NCBI GenBank assembly: GCA_027459645.1
Contig: DAIDHQ010000006.1
Coordinates: 124,001-188,000, forward strand
From: Vulcanimicrobiota bacterium
GTDB taxonomy: Bacteria > Vulcanimicrobiota > Vulcanimicrobiia > Vulcanimicrobiales > Vulcanimicrobiaceae
Direction of reading: 5' to 3'
Length of the DNA stretch: 64,000 nucleotides
Position numbers and translations under genes: made by a program. Shown piece by piece: positions 2,956 to 10,305 of the stretch (its first letter is position 1; each line of letters begins with the position of its first letter). The notes under the pieces are model-generated. The model made no database searches. It saw nothing but the letters and a program-made list of their open reading frames with translations, and was not told the origin of the DNA.

Positions 2956-4548
2956 CTACTGGCCGTCGGTCGTTTCGATGAAGTGCGCCACGTCGTTGTG
3001 CAAGTGCGCGTGCGACGTTGGGTTGAGATACACCATGTGTCCCGAATGGTAGTAGTGGATCGCGAAGTGCGATTGCAGTGCCGGCTGCAGGCCTAGATGC
3101 GAGAACGTCCATTCCGCGGCGCCGAAGGGCGTCGCCATGTCGAAGTATCCCGCGCCGACGAAGACGCGCATCTTGGGGTTCTGCGTCATCGCGTCTTGCA
3201 GGTCGCCGCTGGTCGTCGGAGCGAGCCAGTTCCACACGTTCTTACGCGTGTAATCCCACTGCCCGTTCACTTTGAAGTTGCATTGCGGATAGGCGGCTTT
3301 GCTCTTCCAATTGAGCTCGTTGCGCACGTAGCTGATGAAGCCGGATTGCAGCACGGGGCTCGTATAGCTATCGGACGGATCGAATTCGGCCGAATCGCCG
3401 ATTTGATCTTCGTCGTATCCGGTGTAGCGCGCATCTAGGCGGCCCGTCTGCAGACCCTCTTCGCGCATCAACTGTTTCTCGAAACGCTGCGGTTGCATGC
3501 GTAGATTCGATTGCTCGGCGTATTTTTCGGAGACGCCGGTGAGCGACGCGAGCTGTTTCGCGATCGACACAAACTGATCGTGCGGTAAGCGCGAGCCTTG
3601 CAGCAGTGCCGATGCATAGGGGCCGTTTGCAAACGCGCGAGCTTTGGCGACGACGGCTTGCAGGCTGCCGCGCGACGAGGCTTTCTCGTGATACCAATGC
3701 GTCGCCGCTTCGGTCGGCAGATAGGTGATGTACGGCAAATCGTTGCCCGGGCCGGGCGCGATCGTATCGAAATCGAGCACCGAACTGAGCAGAATCACGC
3801 CGTTCATCGCGATCGTATCTTGGTTGAGCAAACGGTCGACCAGCGCGGCGCTGCGCGGCGTGCCGTAGCTTTCACCGAACAGATATTTCGGCGAGTTCCA
3901 GCGATTGTTGTAGGTAATATAGCGGCGGATGAATTGGGCGAACGCGGCCGCGTCCTGATCGATGCCGTAGATGGTCTTCGGATTCGTCTTCGGGAAGAGT
4001 CTGCTGTAGCCGGTTCCCGGCGCGTCGATAAAGACCAGATCCGATGCGTCGAGTAACGTATCGGGGTTGTCCACGATTTTCGCGGGTGCTCCTGCGTTAG
4101 GGGCGGCGTTCGCGATGACGATCTTGCGCGGACCGAAGCCCAGCATGTGCAGCGGCGACGACGCGCAGCCGGGACCGCCGTTGTAGATGAACGTGACCGG
4201 GCGCTGGTTCGCGGGAACGCCGTCCTTCGTGTACGCGACGTAGAAGATGCTGGCTTCGGGTTGGTGCTTGGCGTTGCTCAACACGATGGTGCCGGCGGTC
4301 GCGGTGTACTGGATGCGCGTTCCGTTGATGGTGATCGAATGGTGCGTCACCGACTTTTTGTCGTGGGCGTTGGGCGTCGGCTTGGGCTTAGGCTTCGCCT
4401 TTGCCGCGTGGGCTTTCGCGGGCGCGGCCTTAGCCGGCGCTTTGGCGGCCAGAACGGCGACCGGAGAAAGGATGGAAAGCACGCAAAGCACCGTTACGAT
4501 CCTTCGACTGCGCTTAGCTCCGCTCAGAATGACACTGGGAATTTGCAT
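2956..4548 (-). CDS. Secreted S10 family serine carboxypeptidase
   Basis: Predicted exported serine carboxypeptidase that removes C-terminal residues from peptides. After a signal peptide (KRSRR followed by a hydrophobic stretch ending VAVLA) and an Ala/Lys/Pro-rich linker comes the S10 fold: the oxyanion segment FIYNGGPGCASS, DLVFIDAPGTGYS, the nucleophile motif LFGESYGTPRS, an Asp region, and the catalytic-His segment YYHSGHMVYL near the end. The frame is open to a TTG at 4578, but that codon lies inside the terminator of the upstream gene, so I use the ATG at 4548 (530 aa). A GTG at 4491 with GAAGGA 8 bp upstream is an alternative start. Residues 5-18 are encoded by a copy of the dispersed palindromic repeat. 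Confidence 0.88.
   Translation of the reverse strand: MQIPSVILSGAKRSRRIVTVLCVLSILSPVAVLAAKAPAKAAPAKAHAAKAKPKPKPTPNAHDKKSVTHHSITINGTRIQYTATAGTIVLSNAKHQPEASIFYVAYTKDGVPANQRPVTFIYNGGPGCASSPLHMLGFGPRKIVIANAAPNAGAPAKIVDNPDTLLDASDLVFIDAPGTGYSRLFPKTNPKTIYGIDQDAAAFAQFIRRYITYNNRWNSPKYLFGESYGTPRSAALVDRLLNQDTIAMNGVILLSSVLDFDTIAPGPGNDLPYITYLPTEAATHWYHEKASSRGSLQAVVAKARAFANGPYASALLQGSRLPHDQFVSIAKQLASLTGVSEKYAEQSNLRMQPQRFEKQLMREEGLQTGRLDARYTGYDEDQIGDSAEFDPSDSYTSPVLQSGFISYVRNELNWKSKAAYPQCNFKVNGQWDYTRKNVWNWLAPTTSGDLQDAMTQNPKMRVFVGAGYFDMATPFGAAEWTFSHLGLQPALQSHFAIHYYHSGHMVYLNPTSHAHLHNDVAHFIETTDGQ
4497..4534. repeat. Half copy of the dispersed palindromic repeat, inside coding sequence
   Basis: CGATCCTTCG, 14 bp, then CGCTCAGAATGACA: the same two landmarks as the right half of the 2836-2949 element, which has CGATCCTTCG, 13 bp and CGCTCAGGATGACA. 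It lies in frame at the 5' end of the S10 peptidase gene and is translated as SVILSGAKRSRRI, the recognisable translation product of this repeat type. Confidence 0.75.
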
Positions 4549-4588
4549 AAGAAAAGGGCATTGCTCCAAGCCGAGCAACGCCCTTCTA
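4545..4588 (-). terminator. Rho-independent terminator after the chemosensory/DUF3343 operon
   Basis: On the minus strand a 14-bp stem (arms 4573-4586 and 4553-4566, one G-T pair and a near-perfect match) with a 6-base loop is followed by TTTTCTTATGC. It lies 26 bp past the stop of the DUF3343 gene and just before the S10 peptidase ATG. Confidence 0.85.
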
Positions 4589-4613: not shown

Positions 4614-4829
4614 CTACTTCACGACGCCCCCAAGCGCCACGCCGGCGCCGCTCAGCGCCGTCTTCGCCTGCGATTCCGCGCCCAAATCGATGCTCAAGCA
4701 CAGATTCGAGGCGGTATTGACCGTCGCGGGCTTAGGAATCATCTTCGCAGGAATGCCCGCATCCTTGAGCGCCTTGGTGGCGATCATCGTGTCGGCATTA
4801 CTGCTGAAGAATAGAATGACGTCGGCCAT
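4614..4829 (-). CDS. DUF3343 small protein (putative Se/S carrier-like)
   Basis: A 71-residue cytoplasmic protein. The pattern VILFFSSNADTMIATKALKD, then AGIPAKMIPKPA and a Cys-containing SNLCLSID strand, fits the DUF3343 family (annotated from family knowledge as putative Se/S carriers), including the single Cys, here residue 44. The family function is not established. It is the last gene of the chemosensory operon, 12 bp after the cache-sensor gene, with AAAGAGA as ribosome binding site, and is followed by a strong terminator. Its position suggests a link between redox/sulfur chemistry and the sensor cluster, but this is inference. Family assignment is by motif only. Confidence 0.7.
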   Translation of the reverse strand: MADVILFFSSNADTMIATKALKDAGIPAKMIPKPATVNTASNLCLSIDLGAESQAKTALSGAGVALGGVVK

Positions 4830-4841
4830 AATCTCTTTCTT

Positions 4842-6182
4842 TTAACCAGCTTCCCCCGTCACGAGTTCCGAAAGGCCCTTCGCCACGTCGTTCAATTCCT
4901 GAACGCGCGTGACCGCCTGCTGCATGCGATTGCTCATCTCTTGCGAGAGCGTATCGATGACGATCATATCGCCTTGCAGTTCCGCGTTCACCGCCTTCAA
5001 CTCGGTGATCTTCGGAGCGCCCGACGCGCCCTGGCCTTGACCCTCGAGTTCGTCCAGAAGCGTGCCCAAGCGTTCCACGGCGGCTTTCGTCATGGCAACG
5101 TGATCGCCTGAGACCTCGCTGCCGACGATCGCGACGCCGAGTTCCTTTGCCGCGGTGCGAACCTGTATGCTGCGCTTGGAAAGCGTGTCGGAGAGGCGTT
5201 GCACGATCGGGATCGCGAGGGCCAGCGCGAGCAGCGCCGCGATCGCGCCCCAGATGAGCAGCGTCAGCGTAGTCTTATTGATAATGGCGTCGAGCGTGGA
5301 GAGCGGAATGCCGTACCACCGCGCGCCGAGCACTTGATTCTGATCGTTGGTGATCGGATCGATGCGCACCAGATAGGCCGTTCCGCCTTCGGTGTCCACG
5401 CCGCTAAACGGCGCGTCGTTTTTCTCGACGTTCTGTGCGGCGGCGACCTGCTGATCGACCGCGCGCGTTCCATCGGGCATTTGAATCGTGCTCGAAATGA
5501 GACCGTCGCCTTCCAGGATCGCCGACGAGCCGCCGAGCGCGTGCGTCGCCTGATCGACCAAATCGTAGTAGTGATTCATCAGCACGCCGCCGACGATCGC
5601 CCCGATCGTGCGCTCGTTCGCATCGCTGATCGGCGCGGCCGCCACGATCGCGAGGCCGTTGTCGATGTGTTCGCTCTTTCCGTCCGCAGTCTTGATGTCG
5701 GCCTGCGCCTGCGGCGCGAGCCCTTCACCATTGAGGAACGCCGGCGAAAGCAGCGTCGCGGTGCTGACCGTCTCGCCCGTCAACGCGCGAGAGACGATGT
5801 CGTTGGATTTGAGCGAGCCGGGCGCCGGCCCGTTCGCGCGGGCGATGACGTTGCCGTTGGTATCGACGACGGTCAAGAACGAGAGCCCGGAAGTACGCGC
5901 GGCGTTCGAGAGCTGATCCTGCAGCGCCGCGACGTTCTTCGATTGCAGCGCCTTGCGCATCGTGTCGCTGACGGCGTCCTGCGCGACGAGCAGCTTGATC
6001 TGATCCTTACGCGAATCCCAATATCCGCCGAAGGCGCCCGCTCCGTTGTTCACTTGCGTCTGCGCGAGCGAACGAAGCTGATTGTTCAGCTCGATGCGCG
6101 ATGCGATCAGCGTGACGAGAAAGCAGAGAACGATCGCGCCGACGATGGTGCCAAGAAGCCGCGTTCTGAGACTTAATTTCAT
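4842..6182 (-). CDS. Membrane cache-domain sensor protein A, without MCP signalling domain
   Basis: A 446-residue protein. A membrane helix (about residues 9-29) is followed by a ~270-residue extracytoplasmic region with cache-type strands ([17 protein letters not shown], a second half IVGGVLMN...DLVDQ), a second helix (about 308-327), then a short cytoplasmic tail. The tail has an [19 protein letters not shown] signature and a coiled region ending [17 protein letters not shown]. There is no HAMP-plus-MCP hairpin, kinase or GGDEF domain. It is clearly paralogous to the gene at 7981-9240, sharing GSEVSGDHV and VIDTL-EMSNRM. The start codon overlaps the MCP stop (ATGA at 6179-6182), so the two are translationally coupled. 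The ligand is unknown. Confidence 0.85.
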
Positions 6183-7855
6183 GAGTGGACTTCCTCCGAG
6201 TCGCTCTCGGTGACTTTGAATTGCCCGAGACGGCCGTCGATTTCACCGGCAAACGCATTCATTTGATCGACCTTGTCCATCATGCGTTGTGCCGCTTCGG
6301 TAACTTCTTTGTTGACGTACGTGAGCACTTCAACCGACGAGGCGTTTTGTTGCGAAATTGACGAAATGTCGGAAAACGCTTTGCTGACCTCGTCGGACTG
6401 GCGCGTCATCGACTGCGTCGCCTTGAGGTTGAGGGCGACGGACTTGGTGATCTCCTCGATCTGCCGGATCACCTGATACGAGTTGGCGCTCATCGCGCGG
6501 GTCACCGAGCTAATCTCGCTGATCTGATTGTTCGAGGTCAGGACGGCCGAAACGATCTCTTGCAGCGCGTCCGATGCGGAATTGGTGCTGCCGGTGCTCT
6601 CTTCCACGCGTTCGGTCAGGCGCTCCATGGCGTTGACGACTTCCGAAATGACCGTCTGCGTCGAGGTGATGTGACCGGCGATCTCTTTGGTTGCCTGAAC
6701 GCTGCCGTCGGCGAGCTTGCGGATCTCGCTTGCGACGACGGCGAAGCCGCGGCCGTGTTCGCCGGCGCGCGCCGCTTCGATCGCGGCGTTGAGCGCGAGC
6801 AGGTTCGTCTGCTCCGCGATCCGGTCGATAACTTTGACAATGTCGCCGATTTGTTCGGAGTTGTTGCCCAACTGCCGAATATCTTGACCCAGTTCGTTGA
6901 TGGTGGTGCGAATCGTATGCATTCCGTCGACGATCGTGCCGATGGCGCTGCCGCCGCGCTCCGCCGTGCGCGACGTCTCGGTCGAGATGCTGGAGAGCGA
7001 ATCGACTTGCGCGGCGACTTCTTCAATCGACGACGCCATGTTCGAAACGGCGAGCGCCGTTTCGTCCAGGCTGCGCGTCTGTTGCTCCGCGCTCGCGGCG
7101 ATCGTGGAGATCGCTTCGGTGAGCGCGATCACTTTTGTGGTGGCCTCTTCGACGATGCGCCCTTGCTCCGCAATGCCTTCGTCGAGCTGCCCCTGCGCGA
7201 CCGAGGCGCCTTCGATAACGGCGAGTGCCGTCGACGCCGTGGTACGCAGTTCGCCGCCGGCTCCGCCGAGCTGCGATGCGTTGGCATGCAATTGGCGCAG
7301 AAACTCGCGCATCCCGAAGATGAGCTTGTTGAGCGCGATGGCGAGCTCTTGAAGCTGTCCGTCGCTGACGGCGATATTTTTGGTGAAATCGCCCTGCGAG
7401 ACTTCGCGAATGCCCGAGGCGAGCGCCGCGATGCTGACCGTGGCCGCGCCGTTGGAGCCCTCCCGCGGCAAAGCGACGCGCGAGGTCCCACGAAACGCGA
7501 GCTGGCCGCTCATGCCGTCGCCCAGTTCTTCGACGGGAACCATCTCTCCGAAGAAGAGCGCGCTGACGATCAGACCGCCGACGATCGCGATCGCGACCGG
7601 AATCGTGGGGTCGCCGCCGTGGTGCATCCGGACGTAGGCATCGACGCCGCCGCCTGCGATGGCGGTAAGCGCGCCGGTCCAAAAGCCGGTCGACGCGGCG
7701 GCGAGGGCAGTAATGACGAGCAGAACGGCTTCGACGGGGGTCGGCCGGCCGTACCAAGCGACCGCGGCAGCGATGAGGATTGCCACGACGGACAGCGCCA
7801 AGCGGGCCGGCAGTCCCAACCGTGCCCGGAGACCTGCGAAATAGGCGGAGATCAC
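6179..7855 (-). CDS. Methyl-accepting chemotaxis signalling protein with a membrane-embedded N-terminus
   Basis: Cytoplasmic MCP signalling domain on a four-helix membrane anchor (residues ~10-110, resembling the KdpD-type DUF4118 membrane domain), then a HAMP-like segment (SQGDFTKNI) and a long coiled coil. The hairpin tip is [20 protein letters not shown] followed by [20 protein letters not shown], the CheA/CheW-contact region. No periplasmic ligand-binding domain is present. The frame opens at a GTG (7897), but I chose GTG 7853-7855 because GAGAGGAG lies 5 bp upstream (7861-7868). It overlaps cache sensor A by 4 bp, and cache sensor B lies just upstream of sensor A's partner gene cluster boundary. 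Output is probably to CheA, which is not in this window. Confidence 0.93.
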
Positions 7856-7980
7856 TGAGCTCCTCTCACTGACGTGACAGATCCATAGCAACAACACGCT
7901 GCGGCACCCGCATGCGTGCCTTTTACCGATGTACGGCCAAAAATCGTGTAGGCTTTAGGAACTACCCGCCGCTTGGACGC

Positions 7981-9240
7981 TTAGTTGCTGCTCGGCCTAG
8001 CGCCTGCAACGAGCGCATCTAAGTCCCGAGCAACCTGGCTTAGGCGCTCGACCCGTTCCGCTGCGTCGCGCATGCGATTCGACATCTCGACGGTCAGCGT
8101 GTCTATAACCACGACGTCGTCGACCGCGGTTCGCGCCAGCGCGTGCAGTGCGGCGCCGTCGCCCCCGCGCTGCGCGAGCACGACAATTTCTTCCAAGGCC
8201 TGCCGCGTCCGGCTGACGTGATCGCCCGAAACCTCACTTCCGACGACCAGCACGCGCAGTTGGCGCGCCGACTCGTTGACCTCTTCACTGCGCGTCACGA
8301 TAGCCCGGCCGATGCGCGAGGCAACGACCGTTCCCGCCACGAGCGCAATTCCGAGACCGATGATGCCCCAGATGACGATCTGCCGTAACGTATTCTCGAC
8401 GATGCCTTCGAACTGCGAAAAGGGCACCGCAAACCACGTCGCACCAATCACGCTTCCTTCGAACCCCGTGAGGGGAGCGGTTTTCGCAAAGTATTGGATG
8501 CCGTCGATCGTTTCGGTGGCGGAGACCGACCGGCGATTCGCTACTTCGGTCGCATGCGCGATGCGAAGCCCCGTCTCTTTCACGCCCTCCTTCGTCTGAA
8601 TCGACGTGTCGACGAAACGTCCGTTCAGCACGATTCCGGTCGCGCCGCCGGTGAAGCGCGCAACGTCGTCGACGAACTTCGTGGTGGCGTTGATGACTTC
8701 GCCGCCGTACAGCACGCCGACGGCGGAGCCGTTGACGTTGACGGGCGAAGCGATCGCGATCGCGACGGCGGCCCCGCGCGAAGCAACGCCGAGCGCGGCG
8801 AGGTTTGCTGCATCGAGCTTCTGCACGCCGCCGGCCACGGCGGCTTCACCGGCCGTCACCACGGGATCGCCTGCGAGACTCCCCGACGCATCGCGGCTTC
8901 CTGCCAAAATCGCGCCTTTGGGATCGGTGACGACGACGAACGAAAGATTGTTCGCGACGGCGATATCCGCCGCCGCCGAAGCGATGGCGCGGCGATTCCT
9001 TTCCGCCAGCGCGCGGGCAAGCTCGGTCTGCGCGGAACCTTGCAAAATCGCCGAACGAATCTGCTCTTCGCGAGCGGCGATCGCGCCTGCGAGCGCGCTC
9101 GAACCGGCGTCGACGCTCTGCCGCGCCAGGCTTTGCACGTCCGAGCGCAAGCCGAAATTGACGCCGACGAGCAACAACACGAATGCGAGCACCATGACGA
9201 TCACGAGCATCGCAATCAGTCGAACGCGAAGACCCACCAC
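7981..9240 (-). CDS. Membrane cache-domain sensor protein B, without MCP signalling domain
   Basis: A 419-residue paralogue of the 4842-6182 product: N-terminal helix (VRLIAMLVIVMVLAFVLLLV), an extracytoplasmic cache-like region (LSFVVVTDPKGAILAG; SAVGVLYGGEVIN), a second helix (about residues 285-310), and a cytoplasmic tail with [18 protein letters not shown] and VVIDTLTVEMSNRMRDA. No recognised output domain. The start is a GTG preceded by GGGAGGGT. It is the first gene of the leftward chemosensory cluster; 125 bp separate its end from the MCP start. How these orphan sensors pass a signal is unknown; interaction with the neighbouring MCP through the conserved tail is my inference. Confidence 0.85.
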   Translation of the reverse strand: MVGLRVRLIAMLVIVMVLAFVLLLVGVNFGLRSDVQSLARQSVDAGSSALAGAIAAREEQIRSAILQGSAQTELARALAERNRRAIASAAADIAVANNLSFVVVTDPKGAILAGSRDASGSLAGDPVVTAGEAAVAGGVQKLDAANLAALGVASRGAAVAIAIASPVNVNGSAVGVLYGGEVINATTKFVDDVARFTGGATGIVLNGRFVDTSIQTKEGVKETGLRIAHATEVANRRSVSATETIDGIQYFAKTAPLTGFEGSVIGATWFAVPFSQFEGIVENTLRQIVIWGIIGLGIALVAGTVVASRIGRAIVTRSEEVNESARQLRVLVVGSEVSGDHVSRTRQALEEIVVLAQRGGDGAALHALARTAVDDVVVIDTLTVEMSNRMRDAAERVERLSQVARDLDALVAGARPSSN

Positions 9241-9339: not shown

Positions 9340-9882
9340 TCAGCGCTCGTTACGAGCGCGGCTGATGCGGCGATCGCACGTCTCACAGAAGTGCGACATC
9401 TTGTTGTCGGTTTCGAAGATCGAATTCGAATAGTACATCGCGCAGCGGGCGTTGTAGCAATGCTTGAGACCGAACGCGTGTCCGAGTTCGTGGACGCATT
9501 CCTTGAGCGTCCTCTGGAAGAGGGCGTTCGGATCGGCCTCCTCGCCATAGAATTCGGAGTGCAGGCGATGGAGGGAGACCGCCGCGACCGCTTGCGCTTC
9601 GTCGGCGTCGCCGTAGATGAACCGGTGCGACGTCTTGTAGAGGTCGTATTCCGTCAGCGCCAGATAGAGCGCGCCGCCTTCGGGGTGCGCGCGGCGCACG
9701 CGGGTGAAGAGCGTCGAAAGAAAGAGCTGCTGGCGGGTGGAGTTGAGCGAACTGCGCGGAACGGCGAGCGCACGTTCCACTTCAACGGTGCAGAGAAAGC
9801 GTTCTTCGAGACACGGCGCGAGCCGATCGAGGAACGCGCCGTCCATGGCGTTGATCGGAACGATGCGGATGCGGGATTCCAT
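9340..9882 (-). CDS. amzA: Archaemetzincin family zinc metalloprotease
   Basis: A 180-residue protein with the diagnostic archaemetzincin signature: HELGHAFGLKHC followed by NARCAMYYSN and the downstream FCETC pair. It supplies three zinc His ligands, the metzincin Met and four structural Cys. Archaemetzincins are predicted zinc aminopeptidase-like enzymes, mainly of archaea and scattered bacteria; their substrate in bacteria is unknown. The frame extends to 9966, but the ATG at 9880-9882 begins the family-typical MESRIRIVPI strand and avoids overlap with divergent acpS, so it is preferred. No signal peptide is seen, so it is probably cytoplasmic. Confidence 0.9.
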   Translation of the reverse strand: MESRIRIVPINAMDGAFLDRLAPCLEERFLCTVEVERALAVPRSSLNSTRQQLFLSTLFTRVRRAHPEGGALYLALTEYDLYKTSHRFIYGDADEAQAVAAVSLHRLHSEFYGEEADPNALFQRTLKECVHELGHAFGLKHCYNARCAMYYSNSIFETDNKMSHFCETCDRRISRARNER

Positions 9883-9946
9883 CTTGGAAGAGGTCGATTC
9901 GACGCCGCAGGCCGGAAAACTGCCGCCCCGGTTCGAAGGCCGCACG

Positions 9947-10305
9947 ATGATCGTTGGCATCGGCATCGACCTCGCGGAGGTCGAACGCTACACGTTCGAC
10001 GAGCGCAGCCTCGCGTGGTTTTCGCGAAAGATCTACACCGAGGAAGAGATGCGCTACGCGATGCGCAAGCGCAACTGGCCCGAACGGCTGGCCGGATTCT
10101 TCGCGGCGAAGGAAGCCACGCGCAAAGCATTCGGACATGCGATCCCCTGGCGGTGGGTCGGCGTTTCGCACGAACGAAGCGGCAAGCCCGTCATTCACCT
10201 CTTCGGCAAAGCCGAGGCGTTGATCGCGCAACGCAACGTTCGCGAGATCCACCTGACGATCACGCACACCGCGACGACGGCCGCAGCGGTCGTCATTTTG
10301 GAATC

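Follow-up and report, generated by a model that had tools for sequence, protein, structure and literature searches.

How can a signal from outside the cell reach the chemotaxis machinery when the domain that would read it and the domain that would pass it on are encoded by different genes? This question is raised by positions 4614-9240 of the window, i.e., the whole stretch of 64,000 nucleotides analysed here, whose host family consists of uncultured bacteria (Eremiobacterota). Canonical dCache chemoreceptors, such as PctA and McpB, share the outer fold (Foldseek) and the signalling domain of these proteins, but carry both functions in one chain, whereas here the functions are split, and no single chain at the locus combines a Cache domain with an MCP signalling domain.

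Gene content of the locus

The original prediction described three genes, namely two membrane sensors without output domain and an MCP between them without outer sensor domain. These three genes were recovered, but a conserved DUF3343-like gene at one end of the interval had been overlooked. All four genes lie on the minus strand, with the following features:

4614-4829, minus strand: DUF3343 / Se_S_carrier-like protein of 71 aa, obligate third gene of the module (PF11823, 33.3 bits; cut-off 25)
4842-6182, minus strand: sensor A (SensA), 446 aa, with TM1, dCache domain, TM2 and cytoplasmic helical hairpin, without output domain (Pfam, AlphaFold2, Foldseek)
4845-5207, minus strand: tail of sensor A, residues 326-446, a family-specific helical hairpin (tail HMM; Pfam-negative in 21 members)
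4923-4961, minus strand: 13-residue motif of the VIDTLxxEMSNRM type, sensor A residues 408-420 (alignment, AlphaFold2 model)
5100-5126, minus strand: VGSEVSGDH motif, sensor A residues 353-361, (nearly) invariant in the alignment of SensA and SensB
6179-6182, minus strand: ATGA overlap of MCP stop and SensA start (4 bp in 46/46 loci)
6179-7855, minus strand: sensor-less MCP, 558 aa from the GTG at 7855, in a frame open to 7897 (PF00015, 148 bits; AGGAG; model)
6302-6349, minus strand: invariant segment of the MCP C-terminal arm, residues 503-518 (16 residues; column conservation)
7301-7447, minus strand: HAMP-like helix-connector-helix of the MCP, residues 137-185 (model; Pfam HAMP E 0.56, G003 orthologue E 7e-4)
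7556-7813, minus strand: four membrane helices of the MCP, residues 15-100 (hydropathy and model)
7981-9240, minus strand: sensor B (SensB), 419 aa, optional paralogous dCache sensor (Pfam, alignment; 32% identity to SensA)
8218-8244, minus strand: VGSEVSGDH motif of sensor B (sequence and alignment)

Both sensors bear out the predicted Cache region facing outside, with PF14827 (dCache_3) scoring 31.7 and 26.6 bits for SensA and SensB, respectively (gathering cut-off 25.7), and sCache_3_3 also above its Pfam cut-off in each. No output domain was detected in either sensor with Pfam or NCBIfam, and no PAS match was found in the sensor partner of the MCP by Pfam, the SensA model or Foldseek. Pfam and AlphaFold2 describe SensA as two membrane helices plus a Cache domain. 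In its AlphaFold2 model (mean pLDDT 84 overall), a long first helix (5-70) leads to a double Cache domain (residues 102-293). The second membrane helix (294-381) extends into the cytoplasm and is connected to a return helix (389-442) by a hairpin tip whose length differs among relatives. The double-Cache fold is backed by Foldseek, which retrieved McpB, PctA, LuxQ, DctB and further Cache sensors, while sequence searches found no relatives of solved structure for either SensA or the DUF3343 protein.

SensA and SensB end in a common helical tail of about 120 residues, predicted at moderate confidence in SensA (pLDDT 54-76). The two-part signature that had been noticed in this tail is present in both proteins, and is retained in SensB despite the low overall identity. 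In the SensA model, VGSEVSGDH and VIDTLSQEM (408-416) are located at approximately equal distance from the hairpin tip, and thus would form a single belt across the hairpin. No sequence match to the tail was found in Pfam, NCBIfam or the PDB, and the possibility that it is a known output domain is countered by the lack of any matching Pfam or NCBIfam domain. By its sequence, the tail is a previously undescribed family. A HAMP domain in the tail was also considered and rejected, since Pfam HAMP matched 0/21 members and the model displays an uninterrupted helix. Across 149 genomes of the phylum, strong matches to the tail HMM occurred only in the window's family, and no plasmid copies were found. 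Five weak matches outside the family (E 0.002-0.009) were treated as chance or coiled-coil similarity; one weak match that was inspected falls within a coiled-coil stretch of an MCP-DctP protein.

The MCP exhibits an intact signalling hairpin, in which 58 of 70 columns are invariant. Its start is probably the GTG at 7855 rather than 7897, given an AGGAG just upstream and orthologues that align from 7855. The model, of low confidence (pLDDT 63), shows four membrane helices joined by short loops, as well as a disordered linker and the HAMP-like element, whose topology is seen at low confidence and whose Pfam score lies below the cut-off in the window. The loops between the four N-terminal helices are too short for an outer sensor domain, in agreement with the prediction. 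Moreover, residues 499-530 contain 14 invariant columns, in a segment not seen in the other MCPs examined.

The small DUF3343 protein belongs by its Pfam score to a family proposed to function in Se or S trafficking by means of one conserved Cys (PMC5322559). This Cys is present in the window protein and most relatives, but is replaced by Ala in one clade (L077, L078, L081-L083, L086 and L114), and the gene lies beside chemotaxis genes rather than selenium genes, in contrast to the described family (PMC5322559). The stretches NADTMIATKALKD and KMIPKP are nearly fixed, also where the Cys is Ala. As judged from these sequences, it is more likely a binding or adaptor protein than a sulfur or selenium carrier.

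Linkage, sensor number and chemotaxis genes

SensA, the MCP and the DUF3343 gene are each carried by an identical set of 18 genomes, out of 37 in the window's family, at a single chromosomal site with the order eno-ndk-birA-[optional S10]-DUF3343-SensA-MCP-[optional SensB]-M54-acpS-naxE-ligA. The 4-bp overlap that had been noted between sensor A and the MCP is confirmed in the window and recurs in every one of the 46 loci covering both gene ends (a few assemblies are represented twice); an arrangement seen so often, with the overlap in every case, is not due to chance. In 11 module-less genomes, birA directly adjoins the M54 gene, and therefore the three genes were gained or lost as a block. 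Gene order alone is weak evidence, since synteny within the family extends over the entire neighbourhood. Homologues of the tail, which might have turned up mostly without an MCP, were always found beside the sensor-less MCP where the contig was long enough.

Two peptidase genes border the module. The M54 peptidase gene (archaemetzincin-like, window 9340-9966) is a fixed neighbour that stays when the module is absent. The S10 serine carboxypeptidase gene (window 2956-4578), located between the DUF3343 gene and birA, is restricted to G000, G031, G034 and L060/L154, nearly the same genomes as those with SensB or its remnant.

The number of sensors varies. SensB is present in four genera (G000, G027, G031 and G034), and in two further loci (L154:4030-4443 and L060:4893-5306) its first 29 and last 52 residues are joined in one short frame, a remnant that by its sequence has lost most of the sensor through an internal deletion. 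In another genus, outside those with SensB, two species have a second copy of the SensA-DUF3343 pair: G007 (L037, L038) carries a tandem SensA-DUF3343-SensA-DUF3343 downstream of one MCP, and the same duplication is implied by contig ends in G088 (L155, L156). Thus, there seem to be one or two sensors to each MCP, with the DUF3343 gene accompanying SensA. The idea of a modular receptor with swappable sensors is upheld as regards modularity, by the optional SensB and the duplicated pair, but not as regards free swapping: the module occupies one fixed locus and is apparently vertically inherited, so sensors were added or lost rather than freely exchanged.

The module is associated with chemotaxis genes. 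CheA and CheW are present in 18/18 carriers, while neither is present in 13 of the 19 other genomes of the family (Fisher p 1e-5, phylogeny not corrected for). The assembly of the window's genome comprises 3.14 Mb and encodes four proteins with a total of five MCP signalling domains (three further MCP genes besides that of the module). Its CheY, CheC, CheA and CheW genes come after flhB, flhA and a PilZ gene, with a CheR gene on the same contig. This co-occurrence and the flagellar gene context make it very likely that the module feeds flagellar chemotaxis with one CheA. Six genomes of the family possess CheA/CheW without the module, which is therefore not essential for chemotaxis.

Proposed signal transfer between sensor and MCP

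The linkage, the complementary domain content and the two conserved segments argue that a Cache sensor drives the MCP sideways, and we consider it probable that the module constitutes a bipartite chemoreceptor, with a sensor-less MCP under the control of an extracytoplasmic Cache sensor. We infer a physical complex of the two proteins, with the signal running from sensor to MCP. Sensor A, probably as a dimer, would read an outside ligand, and the resulting change would pass via TM2 into its short cytoplasmic helical hairpin. The hairpin and the membrane helices would then act sideways on the co-translated four-helix MCP, most likely through membrane and upper-bundle contacts between Cache sensor and MCP, and the MCP would signal through CheW and the cell's single CheA to the flagella. 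The tail may dock on the HAMP-like or membrane region of the MCP, as the original prediction proposed. Sensor B would represent a second sensor feeding the same MCP, while the DUF3343-like protein may be an obligate accessory, more likely one that binds the sensor or the MCP than a sulfur or selenium carrier.

The bipartite receptor is supported by the gain or loss of its genes as a block, by the conserved belt of tail motifs and by the invariant MCP segment, which is lost in G003. This genome carries a diverged MCP at the same site (L097:4892-6625, minus strand) without SensA and without the DUF3343 gene. Its identity to the window MCP is 51% in the HAMP-like part, 16% in the invariant segment of the C-terminal arm and 39% at the signalling tip. 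Such a pattern would fit an MCP released from its partner, as a single weak case in which most of the protein has diverged; for this reason, the loss of the segment is not a clean test. An extended version, which we regard as plausible yet tentative, is a three-part receptor, with the MCP as a hub, one or more dCache sensors attached via the motif-belt tail to the invariant upper bundle of the MCP, and the DUF3343 protein repurposed as an obligate subunit or regulator.

Two alternatives appear unlikely to a similar degree. According to the first, the sensors would be tip-less receptors derived from MCPs that insert among MCP dimers of any kind and bias the kinase across the array. The tail indeed folds in the model as a helical hairpin resembling a shortened MCP cytoplasmic domain, and among 320 offsets compared for its C-terminal arm, the highest-scoring one (z 3.2) places it on the C-terminal arm of the MCP, a placement that is also the best position in 23 of 33 orthologues. 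However, the N-terminal arm has no corresponding match on the MCP hairpin, and hhalign of tail versus MCP is marginal (E 0.03, probability 1.6%). Moreover, the strict pairing with one sensor-less MCP, although three other MCP genes are present, points to a dedicated partner. Descent of the tail from a shrunken MCP hairpin is therefore not claimed, its C-terminal arm being suggestive and its N-terminal arm failing.

The second, equally doubtful alternative is that the MCP senses alone via its four-helix membrane bundle (e.g., membrane potential or redox), SensA and SensB acting elsewhere and being merely co-expressed. Membrane MCPs that lack a sensor domain are known, and the remaining MCPs of the genome function with no partners of this kind. 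The membrane bundle could itself be a sensor. Nevertheless, the membrane region is the least conserved part of the protein, with 0 invariant columns in 108; SensA lacks a separate output domain and, wherever the assembly shows its surroundings, is accompanied by the MCP; and the overlap of their genes is fixed. Finally, it is very improbable that the adjacency merely reflects conserved synteny of functionally unlinked genes on a slowly rearranging chromosome, since, despite the syntenic eno-ndk-birA to ligA region, the three genes appear or disappear together between flanks that stay in place, the overlap is universal, SensA and DUF3343 have been duplicated jointly and module presence tracks CheA/CheW.

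Known split receptors and wider context

To our knowledge, the detached sensor of known bipartite chemoreceptors is either a cytoplasmic PAS protein or a rhodopsin, and no published description of a detached Cache sensor with a sensor-less MCP was found in the open-access literature searched, which is not proof of novelty. By analogy, the module would work like two such systems while being a member of neither.

A similar gene arrangement is that of CetA/CetB, bipartite energy-taxis receptors of Campylobacter jejuni (PMC2628428), with CetA2/CetB2 in Magnetospirillum gryphiswaldense (PMC12442639). In these systems, sensor and MCP are also encoded by adjacent genes, which overlap in M. gryphiswaldense (PMC12442639), and the MCP paired with the sensor gene likewise possesses membrane helices and a signalling domain, without a ligand domain, and has a HAMP region where the module has a HAMP-like element. 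However, CetB is a PAS protein, cytoplasmic or peripheral, proposed to sense redox state via FAD (PMC2628428, PMC12442639), whereas the sensor described here is embedded in the membrane, carries an outward-facing dCache domain and has a tail of its own. The module also differs in that it may have two sensors per MCP and in that the DUF3343 protein is always present.

The SRII/HtrII system of haloarchaea resembles the proposed mode of action, as a membrane sensor without a kinase-control domain acts sideways on a separate membrane MCP (PMC5292967). Complex formation is known for SRII/HtrII (PMC5292967). The sensor is in that case a seven-helix retinal protein, whereas the dCache sensor described here has two membrane helices and a hairpin in the cytoplasm. 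The co-component systems VtrA/VtrC and ToxR/ToxS are similar in that adjacent gene pairs encode membrane proteins forming one receptor for the outside, but they have a DNA-binding output and a joint ligand pocket (PMC9214523), whereas here one partner has no outer domain.

If the bipartite receptor is real, a transmembrane ligand signal would cross sideways between receptor proteins, which bears on signal sharing in receptor arrays, and a cell could add sensors without new MCP genes. Detached Cache sensors of this kind would offer a natural template for plug-in biosensors. Furthermore, the proposal would provide the first functional lead for the uncharacterised tail family and would place a DUF3343 protein outside selenium metabolism.

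A separate observation concerns the MCP-DctP protein (885-888 aa), encoded at L053:10235-12892 (plus strand; G000:C28) and at L153:2788-5454 (minus strand; G094). It contains a complete DctP solute-binding domain (PF03480, 235 and 217 bits) between two MCP signalling domains, with no evident signal peptide or membrane helix. Judging from this domain order, it is apparently a periplasmic-type binding protein used as a cytoplasmic sensor.
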